In this document: positions 12,818-21,948 of the stretch, in pieces
Position numbering within the stretch: the stretch's first letter is position 1
Layout of the letters: each line of letters begins with the position of its first letter
NCBI GenBank assembly: GCA_022866045.1
Contig: JALHTW010000001.1
Span: forward strand, 1 to 35,513
Direction of reading: 5' to 3'
Length of the DNA stretch: 35,513 nucleotides
From: Candidatus Aminicenantota bacterium
Lineage (GTDB): Bacteria > Acidobacteriota > Aminicenantia > Aminicenantales > UBA4085
Made by a program: the position numbers and the translations under genes
Notes under the pieces: generated by a model
Seen by the model: only the letters and a program-made list of their open reading frames with translations
What the model was told of the DNA's origin: nothing
Databases searched by the model: none

Positions 12818-13447
12818 TCAGCGGATGTTATAGATCTTATGGAGCTGGAAGGAGACCCTGACGTTCTTAAGGCCCTGCCGCAGGGAGTGGTCCAGCAGCC
12901 GTAGGCTCTTGGCCCTGCTCCAGGGAGCGTTTGTCTCTGGCTGGAGGAGAAGCGGCGCAGCCTCGGGAAATTCCTGGCGCAGTCTTTTCACGGTTTCGAA
13001 CGTCAGAGCCCTCGTGACGACGAGCTTTACTTCTCTGGCTTTCCGTCGGAACCGCGGATGGCAGGCATAATTATTCGGTTTGGGCGAGACCGTGATCCAG
13101 TCTGCGGCCAAGGGCTGAAAGATCGTGCCATTGGTTTCGACTTGGACCTTCAGTCCGTCCTTTTTAAGCCCAAGGATAAGGGCTGCGAGGTCCTGAAAGT
13201 ACGGCTCTCCGCCCGTCACCGAGACCCAGCTGGAGGGAAAACGCTTCCGAATGTCTCGGGCCCTTTTCAAAACCAGGTCGACGGACAAACGGCGTCCGCC
13301 CTGCCAGGCGTATTTGGTATCGCAGAAGGAGCAGCGGAGGTTGCAGCCCGCGAGCCGGATAAAGATCGTGGGCTCGCCCTGCCGCAGACCTTCGCCCTGG
13401 ATGGAGGGGAAGATCTCAACGATCTTCAGTGTATGTGGCTGCGGCAT
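12818..13447 (-). CDS. queE: 7-carboxy-7-deazaguanine synthase QueE (radical SAM)
   Basis: 209-aa ORF: EIFPSIQGEGLRQGEPTIFIRLAGCNLRCSFCDTKYAW, SVTGGEP. Confidence 0.93.
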   Translation of the reverse strand: MPQPHTLKIVEIFPSIQGEGLRQGEPTIFIRLAGCNLRCSFCDTKYAWQGGRRLSVDLVLKRARDIRKRFPSSWVSVTGGEPYFQDLAALILGLKKDGLKVQVETNGTIFQPLAADWITVSPKPNNYACHPRFRRKAREVKLVVTRALTFETVKRLRQEFPEAAPLLLQPETNAPWSRAKSLRLLDHSLRQGLKNVRVSFQLHKIYNIR

Positions 13448-13763
13448 CCTCGGATTCCCAGACGGTCACTTCCTTGACGGGGAACGACTTTTTTAGCTCG
13501 ATGAAAAGCCGGCGGGCGAGGTTCTCGGCCGAAGGATTAAAATCATAGACCTCGTTGAGCAGCGTATGATCGGGAAGCGTTGCGGCCAGCTTCTGCTTGA
13601 TCACGGTGAAATCGATCCCGAGGCCGGCCGAGTCAAGCTCCTGGATTTCGATCGCCACTTCGACCTGGAACGTGTGGCCGTGGATTTTTTCGCATTTGCC
13701 CTTGTATTCCTTGAGAAAATGGGCGGCTTGAAATTTATCGCGGACGCGCAGAACCCAGCTCAT
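13416..13763 (-). CDS. queD: 6-carboxy-5,6,7,8-tetrahydropterin synthase QueD
   Basis: 115-aa ORF: FQAAHFLKEYKGKCEKIHGHTFQVEV, LDHTLLNE-like LPDHTLLNEVYDFNPSAENLA, VWESEDAAATY. Confidence 0.93.
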   Translation of the reverse strand: MSWVLRVRDKFQAAHFLKEYKGKCEKIHGHTFQVEVAIEIQELDSAGLGIDFTVIKQKLAATLPDHTLLNEVYDFNPSAENLARRLFIELKKSFPVKEVTVWESEDAAATYTEDR

Positions 13764-14455
13764 CGGCGTCCCTCCTTTCTGAGTCTTTGGATCAAGGGGT
13801 CGGGCACCCCCGCCTCAGCAAACGCACGCTCGCGCAACAGGCACGACGAGCATGCCCCGCAGGGAATTTCGCCCCCGGCGTAGCACGAGACCGAATGGGA
13901 ATAATCCGCTCCGAGCGAAAGACCCAGCCGGATGATCTCGGATTTCTTCATCTGGACGAAGGGGGCCGTGATCTTTATCTTTTCTCCGCCGAAGGCGGCT
14001 TTTGTCCCGGCGTTGACCGCTTTTTCCATCGCCCGGACGAAGCTTCGCCGGGTGTCAGGATAGTCCGGAGAGTCGATGATGTTGAATCCGCAGACGATCT
14101 CAAGGATGCCGCGGGCTTCGGCCCAGGCCGCGGCCAGGGCGAGGAGGATGCCGTTGCGGAACGGGACGTACGTGGCCGGCGGGCCGGGCTTCATCTCGGC
14201 CAACTTCTTGTAGCGGGTAAGCTCGATCGCTTTATCCGTGAGCGCGGAGCCTCCGACCTGGCCCAGGTCGATCTTCAGGATCGTCTGCGGAACGGCGGCC
14301 TTCCGTGCTGTGCGCCGGGCCAGGCGAACTTCAACGTTATGCCGCTGGCCGTAATCGAACGTCAGGGCCTGGACGTCCCGGCCTTTGGCGAGCGCCCAAT
14401 AGAGCACGGTCGTGGAATCGATCCCTCCGGAAAAAAGGACGACGCACTGGTTCAT
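13760..14455 (-). CDS. queC: 7-cyano-7-deazaguanine synthase QueC
   Basis: 231-aa ORF: LFSGGIDSTTVLYWA, TFDYGQRHNVE, YVPFRNGILLALAAAWAE, SCYAGGEIPCGACSSCLLRERAFAEAG. Confidence 0.95.
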   Translation of the reverse strand: MNQCVVLFSGGIDSTTVLYWALAKGRDVQALTFDYGQRHNVEVRLARRTARKAAVPQTILKIDLGQVGGSALTDKAIELTRYKKLAEMKPGPPATYVPFRNGILLALAAAWAEARGILEIVCGFNIIDSPDYPDTRRSFVRAMEKAVNAGTKAAFGGEKIKITAPFVQMKKSEIIRLGLSLGADYSHSVSCYAGGEIPCGACSSCLLRERAFAEAGVPDPLIQRLRKEGRR

Positions 14456-14477: not shown

Positions 14478-17003
14478 CTAACGCCCAGACCCATTTTTTT
14501 CTTCGCAGACGGGGTCCTTGACTTTCCGGTTGGCCCGGCAGAAATTCATCATGGCGCTGATGGCGCGCTGTCCGGCTTCGGCCGAGCCGTCCTGATGGAC
14601 GAAGGCCTCCACGAATTCGAGGAGGTCCGGAGCCGGCGGCCGTTTTCCGTAATCGTGCATCACGTTAACAATCGCCGCGTCCAGGCCGTATTCTTGCGCT
14701 TTGGCCAGGTATGCGCGGCAGACGCCGGTCCTCCGGCCCGGGAGGTCCCGGACGGCGTTGGTGATTCCCAGCGAGAGGTGGACTCCCTTCATCGCCGGGT
14801 CTTTTTTGATCCGGCGGATCGTCTCGAAGGCCCGGTAAGTGTATCCCGGCGTGTCCGGCGTCATCGGCATATCGATGGCCAGCGGGAATACCGTCGAGTC
14901 GAAGAAAATGTCCTCCGGCTTGAAGCCGTACGTTCGGGTCGCAGCCTGGAAGATCGTCCGGGCCATGGCGCAGAGTTCGTCGATGCCGTAGTAGGAGCCT
15001 TCCGAACCCGTGGACTGGATGTCCACGAGCAGCCCGATGAACTTGAAGGGATATTTGGCCCGGAGAGGCAGCAGACGATCCATTGTGTACGTCTTGACCG
15101 AATTCAGGAGAGGCGCGGGAACAGAGGACGCAGCATCCTCATACCACGCTTCGAGACCGGCGATGAGGACCTCCGGAGAGCCGCTGTCCACACAAACCGG
15201 AACACCGTCACTGTGTTGGCGGATGAGCCGGACATAGTCGCGGATCATCCGGACCGTCAGCTCCGGGTTTTTTTCTCCGAAGGCATCCACGTTTACTTCG
15301 ATGTAATCCGCGCCGTGTTTGACCTGGGCTTTGACAAGGGAGATGATGTAGTCTCGGGCCCCGCTCGTTTTTTCCCATGCGCCTTGGCCAAGCCGGAGAA
15401 GCTCTTTCATCGCCGCCGCAGGCCTTGCGATGCTCGCATGGACACTTTCCCCGATCTGGATCAGGCCGGTTTTTTTGGTGTGGTCTTTTTCGAAGAGGTA
15501 GTTTAAAAGAGACGCCGTCCCGTCGAGCGCCGGGATGCGGCGGGGATTGATCGTTCTCTCCAATTTCTTTAATCCATGCGGGCCTTCGCTCGCGGCCGCC
15601 TCGTAAATGAGCTCTCCGACGCACCGCCGCCCTGTGTCGTGGCTGCACATGCCTTCGGCATTCGCGTCCCCGCAGGGAGGGTTCGGCAGCCCTTTCGCGC
15701 ATTCGCCGAGCGTGCAGCGGCCGAAGTTCTCGGGCAGGAAGCAATCGCCGCATTCCTCGCAGTCGAAAAGGACGGTCTTCAGGGCTTTCTCCCCAGCGAA
15801 AAAGATTTTGTAGGGAGCGCCTTTTCCTTGGCGCAGCGAAGAACTGAGGCCGAGGAATTTTTTAACGGCGGGTTCGAGGCCCTGGCCCGGCGTCAGGAGA
15901 GTCCGATGCGTGACGTCGAAGAACTTCTTGTGGAAGTCTGGTCTCGGCCGCGAGGGCTCTCTCCGCTGGCCTCTGTCATCATATAGATAGAATCCTGATT
16001 TTCCGTCGGGAAGCTTCTTTATGGCGAAGTCCAGGTTGTTCTGGAATTGTCTCCAGCCGCCGCCGATGTCCTTGGCCCTCTTCATGATTTTCACGAGCGT
16101 GTCGAAGTCCCAGAGGCCTCCGATATCGACGCCGGCTGCGCCAAGGTCCCGGTACATGGCCACCTGCTCGGCGGCCCGCTCGATATGTTCGCGGACGGAT
16201 TCCTTGGACACTTTTTCAAAGAGATCTTTTGTGACCAAACATCCCGGAAGTTTTCCTTCGTGCATAAGGCGCGGGGCGGGCGTCATCGTGGACAGAAGAT
16301 AGACGTTGCCGAAAACGGGCGCTTCAATATTTTCGTCCTTAAGATACCGGAAGAGCTCTTCGCTTTTGCGCCAATCCCAGCCCATTTGGGTGATCAGGGC
16401 GTCCGCTCCGGCCCGGATCTTCTTTCGCATCTTGGCAACCTGCTGCATCTGGGAGGCTTCCGTGTATTTGAAAGGCGACACGGCGGCGAGGACATAAAAT
16501 TGATGGGTCCGGTCGAAATCACCCGGCGCGGCCCGCTGGAAGGATTCGTTGGACATGTCTTTGATCAAATCGATGAGGCCGACGGAATCGACCTCGAAGA
16601 CGCCTTTCCCCGCGGATGGCTTGTCGCCGGTCAGGGCCAGGACGGATTCAAGGCCCAGCTTCTCCAGTCCGATGAGATATGTCTTTATCGCTTCGATGTT
16701 GTGGTCTTTGGCCGTCACATGGGGGATGACGTCGAGATCAGCCCAGAGGTTCTTCATCTTGAGGAGCGAAAAGACATCGGCCGGGCTCATCGATGCGACG
16801 CCGTTGGGGCTCTGGGGAATCGTGATGCCCGCGAAGCGCACATCATCGGGCAGGCCGGATTTCTTCTCTGCGTATCCTCTTAAGAATTTTTCGAAATTGC
16901 TCAGGTCGTGCCCTGGAAGGGGGACGAGTTCGGCGAGGACGAGGAACCGGCGTTCGTCGGCCGCAGAGTTCACAAGCCTTTTCAGTCGGTTATTCATGTC
17001 CAT
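14478..17003 (-). CDS. Fusion: methylenetetrahydrofolate reductase (MetF) - MetV-like Cys-rich domain - pterin-binding methyltransferase
   Basis: Up to 865-aa ORF; start chosen at MDMNNRLKRLV, upstream ATGs possible. N-term: MetF-like TIM barrel (FLVLAELVPLPG...HVTAKDHN...LALTGDKPS). Middle: CEECGDCFLPENFGRCTLGECAKGLPNPPCGDANAEGMC. C-term: pterin-binding fold (GLIQIGESVHAS...GADYIEVNVDAFGEKNPELTVRMIRDYVRLI...PVCVDSGSPEVLIAGL...LSLGITNAV). Confidence 0.88.
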   Translation of the reverse strand: MDMNNRLKRLVNSAADERRFLVLAELVPLPGHDLSNFEKFLRGYAEKKSGLPDDVRFAGITIPQSPNGVASMSPADVFSLLKMKNLWADLDVIPHVTAKDHNIEAIKTYLIGLEKLGLESVLALTGDKPSAGKGVFEVDSVGLIDLIKDMSNESFQRAAPGDFDRTHQFYVLAAVSPFKYTEASQMQQVAKMRKKIRAGADALITQMGWDWRKSEELFRYLKDENIEAPVFGNVYLLSTMTPAPRLMHEGKLPGCLVTKDLFEKVSKESVREHIERAAEQVAMYRDLGAAGVDIGGLWDFDTLVKIMKRAKDIGGGWRQFQNNLDFAIKKLPDGKSGFYLYDDRGQRREPSRPRPDFHKKFFDVTHRTLLTPGQGLEPAVKKFLGLSSSLRQGKGAPYKIFFAGEKALKTVLFDCEECGDCFLPENFGRCTLGECAKGLPNPPCGDANAEGMCSHDTGRRCVGELIYEAAASEGPHGLKKLERTINPRRIPALDGTASLLNYLFEKDHTKKTGLIQIGESVHASIARPAAAMKELLRLGQGAWEKTSGARDYIISLVKAQVKHGADYIEVNVDAFGEKNPELTVRMIRDYVRLIRQHSDGVPVCVDSGSPEVLIAGLEAWYEDAASSVPAPLLNSVKTYTMDRLLPLRAKYPFKFIGLLVDIQSTGSEGSYYGIDELCAMARTIFQAATRTYGFKPEDIFFDSTVFPLAIDMPMTPDTPGYTYRAFETIRRIKKDPAMKGVHLSLGITNAVRDLPGRRTGVCRAYLAKAQEYGLDAAIVNVMHDYGKRPPAPDLLEFVEAFVHQDGSAEAGQRAISAMMNFCRANRKVKDPVCEEKNGSGR

Positions 17004-17154
17004 ATTCTTCCGAATCATTTTATAGCGGTTTCTTTCCTTCAATTCAATAAAAATTTTTTGCCGATGTCTTGACATAGGCGTACCACCGCGCTACACTTAA
17101 GTTAACTCTGTGATAAAATATCCATGAGACGAAGAGTGAAAAGATTTTTTTTCG

Positions 17155-17958
17155 ATGGACACGCAAAGCGATACAGATCCAGGAAGTCCCGCTGACGCGG
17201 GAGGCGTCATCGTCCGCGACGATCAGTTCGATTTTTATCCCCTCCTTGATTCCGTGAAAGCCTGCCGAAAGAGCGGAAACCGTCTGAAGTTCATCGATTC
17301 TGGAAGGCTCGCCCCCATCGAGCTCGAAGAGCTGGCGAAGGCGGGCGCCGACCTTTACACCTCCGACCTCGCCCGGCAGGACTATCGAGAATTCATTCTG
17401 GCAAACAACGCCGCAAAAAGAGGCGGTGCCGTCATCGCCTATTTCCACCACGGTCCCTTCGTCCTCGAAGAAAAAGAAAAAACCGTTTCGTTCACGTCTC
17501 TCAAAGAGATGGGCCGGAGCGGGATCTGTCTCTATGTCTCCAACGGACGCCTCAAACGCGAGTTCCCCGCGCTCGAGGAACTGGCCTGTGCCTGCGCGAA
17601 GAGCGGCGGCCGATTTGTGGTTTATCATCACGGGCCGCTCGACCCGGCGCTGGAAGACCTCGCCCGCCAAGGCGCATGGATTCACATGTCCGGCCGAAGC
17701 CTCGAGCGGGACGACGATGCCGTTCTTCTCTGCGATTCCGTGCGGACCGCGCGCGAACATGATGCCAACATCGTTCTCCATATCGAAAGCCCGCTGAATC
17801 TGGCCTGGCTCGAAGATATCTTCGAAGCCGGAGCGTTCGTCCTTTTTCAAACGCCGCCGAGCGATTACCGGTCGCCCCAGCGGCCTTTTGAGTTTCGGGC
17901 CAAACGTCAAAAACTCGATTTCAGGACCTCCTATCTCTTTCCCGCATTTATGCTCTAA
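17155..17958 (+). CDS. Conserved-looking hypothetical protein, possibly TIM-barrel-like
   Basis: 267-aa ORF with clean start and stop, divergent from the metF fusion; repeated alpha/beta-type segments (RGGAVIAYFHHGPF; GGRFVVYHHGPLDPALEDLARQGAWIHMSG). Confidence 0.65.
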   Translation: MDTQSDTDPGSPADAGGVIVRDDQFDFYPLLDSVKACRKSGNRLKFIDSGRLAPIELEELAKAGADLYTSDLARQDYREFILANNAAKRGGAVIAYFHHGPFVLEEKEKTVSFTSLKEMGRSGICLYVSNGRLKREFPALEELACACAKSGGRFVVYHHGPLDPALEDLARQGAWIHMSGRSLERDDDAVLLCDSVRTAREHDANIVLHIESPLNLAWLEDIFEAGAFVLFQTPPSDYRSPQRPFEFRAKRQKLDFRTSYLFPAFML

Positions 17959-18190: not shown

Positions 18191-19321
18191 ATGAAGATTG
18201 GCTTGCTCTACAGCTCGAAAGCAGGAATGGGCTCAACGTTGAATCGACGTTTCGCTGAAGATAAAAGAGAAGAGGACGACGAACCTCCACCCGATTTTCT
18301 CGCCGAGTGCGATTCCGATGAAACCATAACAGCCGTCGCGGGCGCTCTCCGCACGCGCTACGATGTCATCCCCATCGAATCCGATGAGCGGGCCTTCGAC
18401 CGGCTGAGAAAAGCGAAGCCCGACCTTGTCTTCAATATCGCCGAGCGGTTGTTCGGCCCCAACCGCGAATCGCACATTCCCACGCTCTGCGAGATCCTGG
18501 ACATTCCCTTTACCGGTTCGGACCCGCTGACGTTGAGCATTTGCCTCGACAAGTCCCGGGCGAAGGAGATTCTCTCGTTCCACAGGATCCCGAATCCCGA
18601 ATTCCGGATCGTTGAGCCGGGCGCCCCGGTGCCGTCGGACATCAAACTGCCGGCGATCGTGAAGCCGCTCTACGAAGGGTCGAGCAAGGGCATCAAGGAC
18701 AATTCGGTCGTGGACGACCGGGACATCCTATGCGCCCGCGTCCGCGAAGTGATGTCCCTCTACAAACAGCCGGTCATCATCGAACGTTTTCTCAACGGCC
18801 GGGAATTTACCGTGGGAGTGCTCGGGAACTTCCCCCACCTCGAAATTCTGCCGATCGTCGAGATCGACCACAGCCTGCTGCCTCAGGGCGCGCGGCCGAT
18901 TTATTCCTACGAAGCCAAGTGGATCTGGGACACGCCCGAGAACCCGCTCGAGATCTTCAAGTGCCCGGCGCGGATCCCGGTCGAGGTCCGGGCGAAGATC
19001 GAGAAGATCGTCACAAAGGCCTGCCGGGTCCTCCGGATTAGGGACTGGTGCCGCATTGATGTCCGCCTTGATGAAAACAGCGAGCCGAACATCCTTGAGA
19101 TCAATCCCCTGCCGGGAATCCTTCCCAAACCCGAGGACAACTCGTGCCTGCCCAAGGCGGCGCGGACGGCCGGATACACCTATAACGAACTCATCTTGAG
19201 GGTTGTGGACGAGGCTTTAATCCGCTACGGCTTCGGCGGCGAAACAAAGAACGAAAAAACGCCCGAGAAGAAGATGAAGAAAAACGAAGAACGAACGGTG
19301 GACTGCCGATGGGCCGAGTAA
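18191..19321 (+). CDS. D-alanine-D-alanine ligase-like ATP-grasp enzyme (1)
   Basis: 376-aa ORF: PAIVKPLYEGSSKGI, VIIERFLNGREFTVGVLG, CRIDVRLDENSEPNILEINPLPG. Confidence 0.88.
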   Translation: MKIGLLYSSKAGMGSTLNRRFAEDKREEDDEPPPDFLAECDSDETITAVAGALRTRYDVIPIESDERAFDRLRKAKPDLVFNIAERLFGPNRESHIPTLCEILDIPFTGSDPLTLSICLDKSRAKEILSFHRIPNPEFRIVEPGAPVPSDIKLPAIVKPLYEGSSKGIKDNSVVDDRDILCARVREVMSLYKQPVIIERFLNGREFTVGVLGNFPHLEILPIVEIDHSLLPQGARPIYSYEAKWIWDTPENPLEIFKCPARIPVEVRAKIEKIVTKACRVLRIRDWCRIDVRLDENSEPNILEINPLPGILPKPEDNSCLPKAARTAGYTYNELILRVVDEALIRYGFGGETKNEKTPEKKMKKNEERTVDCRWAE

Positions 19322-20331
19322 AGGAAAAGAACATCCTGGTCGGCATCGCCTATAATGCATACGACCCGCTGACCAGCCGGAAGATCGAACGGCCCTCGGA
19401 GGAGTCCGTCGAGCAGACAGCCAAAGAGGCCCTGACCGCCATCACCGAACTCGGCTATACGGCCTTCATCCTGCCCCTCCACCGGAGCTTCATGAGCTTC
19501 CTGAACCGGCTCAAGGACCTCAACGCCGACGTGATCATCAACCTCTGCGAGGCGTTCGCGGGATATCCCCAGCTCGAGGCTAACGTGGCCGCGGCATTCG
19601 AGCTGCTCGACGTCGCTTTCACCGGGAACGACTCCCGGACCCTCGCCCTCTGCCTGAACAAGTTCAAGACGAAGGCCGTCCTGAAGCATTGCGGATTGCC
19701 GACGCCGCCGGCGAAACTCATCGATTCTCCCGAGGCGAAATTGGACATCCCGTTTCCTGTGATCGTGAAGCCCAACACCGAGGATGCCAGCCTGGGCATC
19801 CTTCCGGATTCCGTGGTCAGTGACCAGGAAGGGTTGCAGAAGCAGGTCCAGCGGATCCTCGACGTTCATGAGCAGCCGGCCCTCGTGGAGGCGTTCATCG
19901 AAGGCCGGGAATTCAACGTAGCCGTCTTCGACAACGGCAAGCCCGAAGCGCTCCCCGTCTCGGAGATCGATTTTTCCAAGATGCCGGAAGGCTGGACCCA
20001 TATCCTGTGCTATCAGGCCAAATGGCTGACGGACGATATCCTCTATACCAGCACCCTTCCCGTGTGCCCGGCCCAGATTGATGACGCTTTGAAAGCGAAA
20101 TTGCAGGAGACGGCGGTCAATGCGTTTCAGGCCGTCGGATGCCGCGACTACGCGCGCATCGATTTCCGGATGGACAAAAAAGGAAAGATCTATATCCTCG
20201 AGGTCAATCCCAATCCGGACATCAGCCTCAACGCGGGATACGCCCGGGCCCTCGGGGCGGCCGGCATCGAATACAAGATCTTCTGGCAGAGAATGATCGA
20301 GAAGGCCCTGGCGAGGAAGGTGAAGAAATGA
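19309..20331 (+). CDS. D-alanine-D-alanine ligase-like ATP-grasp enzyme (2), paralog of the preceding gene
   Basis: 340-aa ORF: FPVIVKPNTEDASLGI, ALVEAFIEGREFNVAVF, YARIDFRMDKKGKIYILEVNPNPDIS; 13-nt overlap with the preceding gene. Confidence 0.88.
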   Translation: MGRVKEKNILVGIAYNAYDPLTSRKIERPSEESVEQTAKEALTAITELGYTAFILPLHRSFMSFLNRLKDLNADVIINLCEAFAGYPQLEANVAAAFELLDVAFTGNDSRTLALCLNKFKTKAVLKHCGLPTPPAKLIDSPEAKLDIPFPVIVKPNTEDASLGILPDSVVSDQEGLQKQVQRILDVHEQPALVEAFIEGREFNVAVFDNGKPEALPVSEIDFSKMPEGWTHILCYQAKWLTDDILYTSTLPVCPAQIDDALKAKLQETAVNAFQAVGCRDYARIDFRMDKKGKIYILEVNPNPDISLNAGYARALGAAGIEYKIFWQRMIEKALARKVKK

Positions 20332-20819
20332 TCCGGTCCATGGCAAGATCCGATAAGACCGTGGTCATGGAGTTGATCGAAGCAACAAACTTCTTCCGTC
20401 CCGATGAACTCCACGTCGCCGAAGAGCTCGTCGACATCTACCTCAATCATCCGGATCAGAAGGACTACGAGGTCGTGGTTATCGAAAGCGAAGAGCACGA
20501 GGTTGCCGGCTACTTGACATGGGGCTCGACGGCGCTCACGGTCGGCACTTATGATCTTTACTGGATGGCCGTTTCCCCGAAGCACCAGGGAAAAGGGTAC
20601 GGTAAAAAGCTCGTCGAATGGCTCGAGGCGAAGGTCGCGGAGCTCAGGGGCCGGATGATTATCGTCGAGACCTCCTCGATGCCCAAATACGATCCGACCC
20701 GCCGGTTTTATTCAGGCTTGAATTATCGAGAGATTGCCCGCATCCCGGACTTTTACCAGCCCGGCGATGACCGGGTCATATATGTTAAGCAGCTAGGCTT
20801 AAAGGAAAAAGGAGATTAG
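20328..20819 (+). CDS. GNAT family N-acetyltransferase
   Basis: ATG at 20328 with ATGA overlap; LYWMAVSPKHQGKGYGKKLVEWLEAKV acetyl-CoA binding motif; FYSGLNYRE. Confidence 0.9.
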   Translation: MIRSMARSDKTVVMELIEATNFFRPDELHVAEELVDIYLNHPDQKDYEVVVIESEEHEVAGYLTWGSTALTVGTYDLYWMAVSPKHQGKGYGKKLVEWLEAKVAELRGRMIIVETSSMPKYDPTRRFYSGLNYREIARIPDFYQPGDDRVIYVKQLGLKEKGD

Positions 20820-20823
20820 GACG

Positions 20824-21948
20824 ATGGACGAATGGCCGCAAATATTGAGGGGCAGCCTGCGGACGCCCGACGAGATCGCCGCGCACTTCGGCTTGAACAA
20901 AGACGAGATCCGCAAGGTTGCCCGTGCTTTTAAGACACAGATCACGCCGTATTATGCGGGCCTGATCAAACACAAAGGCGATCCTCTCTACCGCCAGGTC
21001 GTGCCCGATGCCGCCGAGCTCGAGCGGAACACCGGCCTCGCCGATCCGTTGAACGAGGACGAGGATTCGCCCGTCCCGAGCGTTATCCATCGCTACCCGG
21101 ACCGCCTCCTGTTTCTCGTCTCGCACTGCTGCGCCTCGTACTGCCGGTTTTGCACGAGAAAACGGAAAGTGGGCGACCCGAGCAAGATCCATCCGCGCTA
21201 CATCGAGGACGGCCTGGATTACATCCGCAGCCATCCAGAGATTCGCGACGTCATCGTTTCCGGCGGCGATCCGCTGATGCTCAGCGACGCCCGGCTCGAA
21301 TATATTTTGAAGGAGCTCCGCGCCGTCCCGCACCTCGAGATCCTGCGCATCGGGACGCGCGTGCCGTGCTTCCTGCCCCAGCGTGTGACGCCGAAGCTTG
21401 CGGCCATGCTCAAGATATATCACCCGCTCTACGTCAACGTTCACTTCAACCATCCGGACGAGATCACGCCCGAAGCGGCGAAGGCCCTTGGGCTGCTGGC
21501 CGACGCGGGCATCCCGCTGGGCAACCAGACCGTTCTCTTGAAGGGCGTCAACGACGACCCGGCGGTCATGCGCCGGCTCATGCAGAAGCTCCTGTTCGTG
21601 CGCGTCCGGCCGTATTATATCTACCAGGCGGACTACGTCCAGGGGACCGACCATCTCCGGACGACGGTCGAGAAGGGCCTCGAGATCATGGACGCCCTGC
21701 GGGGCTGGACCTCGGGGCTGGCCGTGCCGTACTACGTCATCGACGCCCCTGGCGGCGGCGGCAAAATCCCCGTTTTGCCGAAATACGTCCAGACCATCAA
21801 CGATGAGCAAGTCGTCATGCGGAACTACGCGGGCGAGATTTACGCCTACCCGCAGACCCAGTCGGGCCAGAAGAAGAGGTCGAGGAAGGAAAAGCAGCCG
21901 TTCGTGACACCCTGCTATGGTGTGACCAACGCCCCTCCCATCGGATAG
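20824..21948 (+). CDS. KamA family radical SAM aminomutase (lysine 2,3-aminomutase-like)
   Basis: 374-aa ORF: CASYCRFC cluster motif, VIVSGGDPLMLSD, LGNQTVLLKGVNDD, YIYQADYVQGTDHLRT, VIDAPGGGGKIPVLPKYV (PLP Lys). Confidence 0.93.
   Translation: MDEWPQILRGSLRTPDEIAAHFGLNKDEIRKVARAFKTQITPYYAGLIKHKGDPLYRQVVPDAAELERNTGLADPLNEDEDSPVPSVIHRYPDRLLFLVSHCCASYCRFCTRKRKVGDPSKIHPRYIEDGLDYIRSHPEIRDVIVSGGDPLMLSDARLEYILKELRAVPHLEILRIGTRVPCFLPQRVTPKLAAMLKIYHPLYVNVHFNHPDEITPEAAKALGLLADAGIPLGNQTVLLKGVNDDPAVMRRLMQKLLFVRVRPYYIYQADYVQGTDHLRTTVEKGLEIMDALRGWTSGLAVPYYVIDAPGGGGKIPVLPKYVQTINDEQVVMRNYAGEIYAYPQTQSGQKKRSRKEKQPFVTPCYGVTNAPPIG

Follow-up and report, generated by a model that had tools for sequence, protein, structure and literature searches.

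A MetF-MetV-methyltransferase fusion in Candidatus Aminicenantes as a probable part of a split cobalamin-dependent methionine synthase

There are a number of described systems to which the gene reported here can be compared. In Phaeobacter inhibens, a three-part MetH encoded as separate proteins makes methionine together with a RamA-like activase (PMC5764234). In Ruegeria pomeroyi, MtgC and MtgD are required for methionine synthesis and for the demethylation of glycine betaine, and metF2 lies directly downstream of mtgD (PMC12478193). Acetogens possess MetVF reductases, which are reported to use reduced ferredoxin in vitro and whose MetV and MetF are separate subunits with no methyltransferase attached (PMC8760232). 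The fusion described here shares the MetF barrel and the MetV-type Cys domain with these reductases, but carries them in one chain with a methyltransferase (MeTr). It resembles the split MetH of Phaeobacter inhibens and the MtgB, MtgC, MtgD, and MtgE proteins of Ruegeria pomeroyi in that the homocysteine, corrinoid, and pterin proteins are separate. However, MtgD and MetF are separate in those bacteria, whereas here they are joined in a single chain, separated by a MetV-type domain.

Other proteins share parts of this arrangement. PRK08645 is also an MTHFR fused to one half of methionine synthase, but it carries the homocysteine module N-terminally, whereas the fusion carries the folate module C-terminally. 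MetH has the folate module that gives the best fold match to the third domain (5voo). Its chain also contains homocysteine, corrinoid, and activation modules, none of which is in the fusion. AcsE (2e7f, 2yci) is similar in its fold and its pterin-ligand positions. It is, however, a stand-alone protein of 262-271 aa that serves the corrinoid iron-sulfur protein, and the fusion falls below the curated AcsE cut-off. A split MetH is already known, and the folate module fused to MetF-MetV is a new variation on it. The initial annotation had asked whether such a fusion is common and already characterised. It proved to be common in Sedimentisphaerales, and no description or characterisation of it was found in the literature searched, which was open-access and took in few subscription papers.

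The fusion was found in the window, the whole stretch of 35,513 nucleotides that was analysed, which belongs to a 3.28-Mb draft MAG of Candidatus Aminicenantes that is 94% complete. The named close relatives of this genome are also Candidatus Aminicenantes MAGs. The gene is a single unbroken ORF, and its longest form encodes 865 aa from the first ATG (Table 1). The likely start is the in-frame ATG at 17003, near which the starts of homologues cluster, and this gives a protein of 841 aa. Three domains lie above the Pfam curated cut-offs. These are MTHFR (PF02219, 68.3 bits against a cut-off of 24, residues 112-272 of 865), DUF5981/MetV (PF12225, 50.9 bits against 23, residues 424-498 of 865), and Pterin_bind (PF00809, 43.8 bits against 25.5, residues 575-804 of 865). 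The initial annotation had read the ORF as a MetF, MetV-like, and pterin methyltransferase fusion with no B12-binding or homocysteine-binding domain, and the Pfam scan agrees on both points; PF02574 (homocysteine methyltransferase) is likewise absent from the chain. The fusion is a genuine chain and not an assembly artefact, because the identical architecture occurs in many independent genomes.

Table 1. Positions in the window of the fusion gene, its domains, and its nearest neighbours.
Feature	Position	Strand	Basis or remark
MetF-MetV-MeTr fusion gene	14478..17075	-	ORF, Pfam, NCBIfam, homologue starts, structure model
MetF-like TIM barrel	16098..16946	-	residues ~20-302 (841-aa form); Pfam, fold match, conserved residues
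MetV-type Cys domain (DUF5981)	15579..15767	-	residues ~413-475 (841-aa form); Pfam, conserved Cys
MeTr/pterin-binding domain	14523..15467	-	residues ~513-827 (841-aa form); Pfam, PDB match, fold, ligand positions
queC	13760..14455	-	22 bp downstream of fusion; genomic neighbour, outside proposed function
Divergent conserved gene	17155..17958	+	next to fusion in several related contigs

The third domain was also compared with NCBIfam models and known structures. Its best NCBIfam model is an AcsE-type domain model (82.7 bits), and the closest PDB match to the fusion by sequence is the AcsE-type methyltransferase 2yci. The fusion does not reach the cut-offs of the curated AcsE model (38.9 bits, cut-off 370), the PRK08645 bifunctional HcyMT/MTHFR model (99.8 bits, cut-off 453), or the MetH model, which it matches in the folate module alone (56.4 bits, cut-off 1010). 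An AlphaFold2 model of the fusion, built from an alignment of 50 rows, is of high confidence, with a pLDDT of 90.7 and a pTM of 0.88. By Foldseek, its N-terminal barrel matches the Thermus MTHFR 1v93 (TM 0.77). The C-terminal barrel matches 5voo, the methyl-THF-bound folate domain of MetH (TM 0.82, rmsd 3.5), more closely than it matches AcsE 2yci (TM 0.73, rmsd 8.7). In the predicted structure, the third domain therefore fits the folate domain of MetH better than AcsE.

The active sites are well conserved. In an alignment of 72 distinct fused proteins, E25, D127, and Q206 of the MetF barrel are invariant. These are presumably the active-site acidic and Gln residues, going by Escherichia coli MetF. 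The Cys-rich segment seen in the initial annotation holds eight Cys that are kept in all 72 fused proteins and in 6/6 MetF-MetV proteins without the third domain. The methyltransferase site is intact in the source protein; when aligned with 2yci, D606, N634, D702, and N749 (841-aa numbering) are all present. We take these positions to be the pterin-binding residues in AcsE. The D/N/D/N set is complete in 64 of the 72 fused proteins and in all 18 stand-alone MeTr relatives. At least one position is lost in the other eight fused proteins and in a ninth, truncated one (L152).

Eight of these nine proteins come from genomes with an intact MeTr copy elsewhere. The intact copy is the adjacent gene in G297, a stand-alone protein in G339, G379, G393, G396, G408, and G417, and another fusion in G409. 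This pairing suggests that methyltransferase activity would be required even in genomes whose fused domain has decayed. In the remaining genome, G416, the fused domain has decayed as well, and a search for an intact MeTr copy found none. The decayed copy in G409 (L191, C1:2603978-2606437) is the second fusion of that genome. ORFs near it were read as hydrogenase or formate-dehydrogenase accessory genes.

In a set of 297 genomes from the phylum, the complete fusion chain was found solely in the family of the source genome, where 11 of 12 genomes have it (one copy is truncated at a contig end). Elsewhere in the Acidobacteriota, MetF-MetV occurs alone, at two loci (L008 and L018) next to a separate MeTr gene. 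A whole-genome search of Sedimentisphaerales (Planctomycetota) found the fusion in about 75 of 118 genomes, a hand count from a table that includes a few fusions cut by contig ends, at 43-63% identity. In a tree of the MeTr domain, the Aminicenantes fusions form one clade (100/100) nested inside Sedimentisphaerales sequences, and several stand-alone proteins are interspersed among the fused ones. This suggests that the fusion may have been transferred into Aminicenantes and that splitting or duplication may have occurred repeatedly, with the details unsure given the long branches. In one relative, L004, the ORF is intact and in-frame stops sit upstream of its start. No relative was found among viral contigs and no full-length relative on plasmids, and viral origin and plasmid carriage were both rejected. 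A match on a Roseinatronobacter plasmid, considered as a possible MtgD and set aside as uninformative, falls between metF and metK where no gene is annotated.

In the draft source genome, the fusion is the sole MTHFR match and the only MeTr found. The genome has two Pterin_bind proteins, the fusion and a strong match on contig C20 that was taken for dihydropteroate synthase by its score and neighbours. The MetE C-terminal domain was not found in any of eight fusion genomes, and PF02574 is present in all eight. When 32 genomes were scanned with the MetH model, its cut-off was unreached in 31. Only G314 reached it, with a full MetH, and this genome lacks the fusion. Pieces of the model were matched in the source genome by separate proteins, none of which reaches the MetH cut-off. 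Model positions 5-324 (homocysteine module) match a 297-aa protein on C41, and positions 314-608 (folate module) match the fusion. The corrinoid module is matched by a 207-aa protein on C179 (636-864) and at C41:54002 (646-835), and the activation module weakly at C41:51886 (1113-1168, E 9e-4). The source genome encodes separate homocysteine, folate, and corrinoid proteins, and no full MetH or MetE was found in it. A split MetH lacking the pterin domain had been proposed in the initial annotation as something to look for, and the search bore it out, weakly so for the activation-like piece. The genes are dispersed in the genome and do not form one operon with the fusion.

Contig C41 holds a row of genes for an amino-acid permease, RACo, a corrinoid protein (221 aa), an MttB-family methyltransferase, and an activation-like protein. 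This row has no MtgA of its own. The 207-aa corrinoid gene on C179 stands alone, away from any MttB. It has relatives in G146, G298, G300, and G301 at 75-85% identity and in G297 at 57%; it was not found in G296 or G299. The acceptor of the methyl group had been left unknown in the initial annotation and can be narrowed to these two candidate stand-alone corrinoid proteins. For the homocysteine methyltransferase on C41, the HcyMT-MTHFR and BHMT models outscore the MetH model, and therefore it could use another methyl donor. MttB is present in seven of the eight fusion genomes; in G301 no MttB match accompanies the fusion, and G297 has a distant MttB only.

The fusion is probably a MetF-MetV-type methylene-THF reductase joined to the folate module, in the role of MtgD, of a split cobalamin-dependent methionine synthase. 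We infer the reactions, partners, and directions of the route as follows. The MetF barrel would convert methylene-THF to methyl-THF, with electrons entering via the MetV domain. The C-terminal MeTr would then methylate Co(I) in a stand-alone corrinoid protein: the 207-aa protein on C179, the 221-aa one encoded in the MttB operon on C41, or both. The stand-alone 297-aa homocysteine methyltransferase would take the methyl group from the corrinoid to make methionine. The RACo-type activase and the short MetH-activation-like protein could hold the corrinoid in its reduced state. Where a genome has the MttB operon, these MeTr and MetF parts may also run in reverse, from methylamine methyl to corrinoid, methyl-THF, and methylene-THF. 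It is plausible that, by virtue of the fusion, methyl-THF is handed directly between the two folate sites. A fully bidirectional chain, which would link methylene-THF and methyl-corrinoid without release of methyl-THF and serve as sole MTHFR, as folate half of the split MetH, and in MttB demethylation, is proposed only tentatively and seems somewhat doubtful. Such a fusion would be expected if neighbours like mtgD and metF2 had merged, here with a MetV-type reductase.

Several observations were counted for a split MetH, among them the separate MetH pieces, the lack of MetE matches, the sole-copy status of the fusion in the source genome, the fold match to 5voo, the retained ligand positions, and the published parallels in Phaeobacter and Ruegeria. 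The sole genome with a full MetH among the 32 lacks the fusion. Both G319 and G324 have a homocysteine methyltransferase-MTHFR gene with an unfused MeTr relative (44-45% identity) 11 bp upstream of it. In G417, same-strand genes ahead of the fusion were read by eye as tRNA thiolase, cysteine synthase, and sulfite reductase. Counted against it were the draft state of the genomes, the scattered genes, the model scores of the homocysteine methyltransferase, the missing 207-aa corrinoid protein in G296 and G299, the case of G416, and the CODH/ACS setting in G346.

The fusion could instead be purely catabolic, with the MeTr taking the methyl group from the MttB-operon corrinoid, MetF-MetV oxidising methyl-THF, and methionine being made otherwise or imported. 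The C41 row without an MtgA and the frequency of MttB among fusion genomes agree with this, and MetF2 of Ruegeria is thought to run in the oxidative direction (PMC12478193). However, this explanation is unlikely in view of G301 and G297 and of the 207-aa corrinoid gene, isolated as it is from any MttB. In addition, the MttB cluster of G325 brings its own 265-aa MtgA-like MeTr, which falls on another tree branch and shares 29% identity with the fused domain. It would be more economical to assume two roles, as in Ruegeria, than catabolism alone. It is also quite improbable that the third domain is a noncatalytic module for methyl-THF binding or dimerisation. The domain is retained in L152 and the eight other proteins with decayed ligand positions, but nearly all of these are paired with an intact copy, the four positions are kept in most fused proteins, and the source protein has them in a genome where no other MeTr was found.

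The initial annotation had placed the fusion near the AcsE step of acetogens, in which the methyl group goes to the corrinoid iron-sulfur protein of the Wood-Ljungdahl pathway. The top NCBIfam model of the third domain points that way. So do a formate-THF ligase gene that precedes the fusion in G425 and an unfused MeTr relative in G346 whose neighbours in a CODH/ACS cluster include MetV and formate-THF ligase. This setting did not hold up. An AcsE role is very unlikely and was rejected because no CdhD-type (CODH/ACS) corrinoid subunit was found in the source genome. The fusion is also far from the curated AcsE cut-off, its third domain fits 5voo better than 2yci, and the cluster in G346 has its own AcsE-like gene. 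Matches to CdhD in sister genomes were rejected as evidence of CODH/ACS, since those examined are HgcA. Another reading is that the fusion delivers methyl groups to HgcA, the corrinoid protein for mercury methylation found in several sister genomes. HgcA scores 334-449 bits (cut-off 275) in four fusion genomes tested (G296, G300, G301, and G146), HgcB is downstream of HgcA in G296, and no MeTr besides the fusion was found in G300 or G301. However, the source genome has no HgcA match and S-adenosylmethionine is the methyl donor to HgcAB named in biochemical work (PMC11588087), which leaves this the least probable of the explanations considered. The HgcA loci of the fusion-bearing Aminicenantes are L166 (G296), L168 (G300), L169 (G301), and L171 (G146). 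The HgcA cap-helix motif is present in G306 (L167).

The fusion places two consecutive one-carbon enzymes in one chain, and searches for a whole MetH or MetE would see an incomplete methionine route in its hosts. Two distant groups of bacteria, most of them uncultured, have conserved the fusion, and it is seemingly unstudied. If confirmed, a split MetH of this kind would explain methionine synthesis in one Aminicenantes family and in much of Sedimentisphaerales. It would also offer a natural system for studying how methyl-THF is passed from one site to another, and it would show that methionine synthesis and methylamine use are linked in other bacteria as well as in marine aerobes.

Other genes surround the fusion in the window. 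After it lie queC, queD, and queE (12818-14455, minus strand), whose order is kept in several relatives and which have no evident functional link to it. The divergent conserved gene on the other side encodes a 267-aa product with 48-66% identity in several Aminicenantes contigs and no convincing Pfam or NCBIfam match. Beyond it (18191-21948, plus strand) are ORFs that were read by eye as two tandem ATP-grasp proteins (D-Ala-D-Ala ligase-like), an acetyltransferase-like protein, and a lysine 2,3-aminomutase-like protein.
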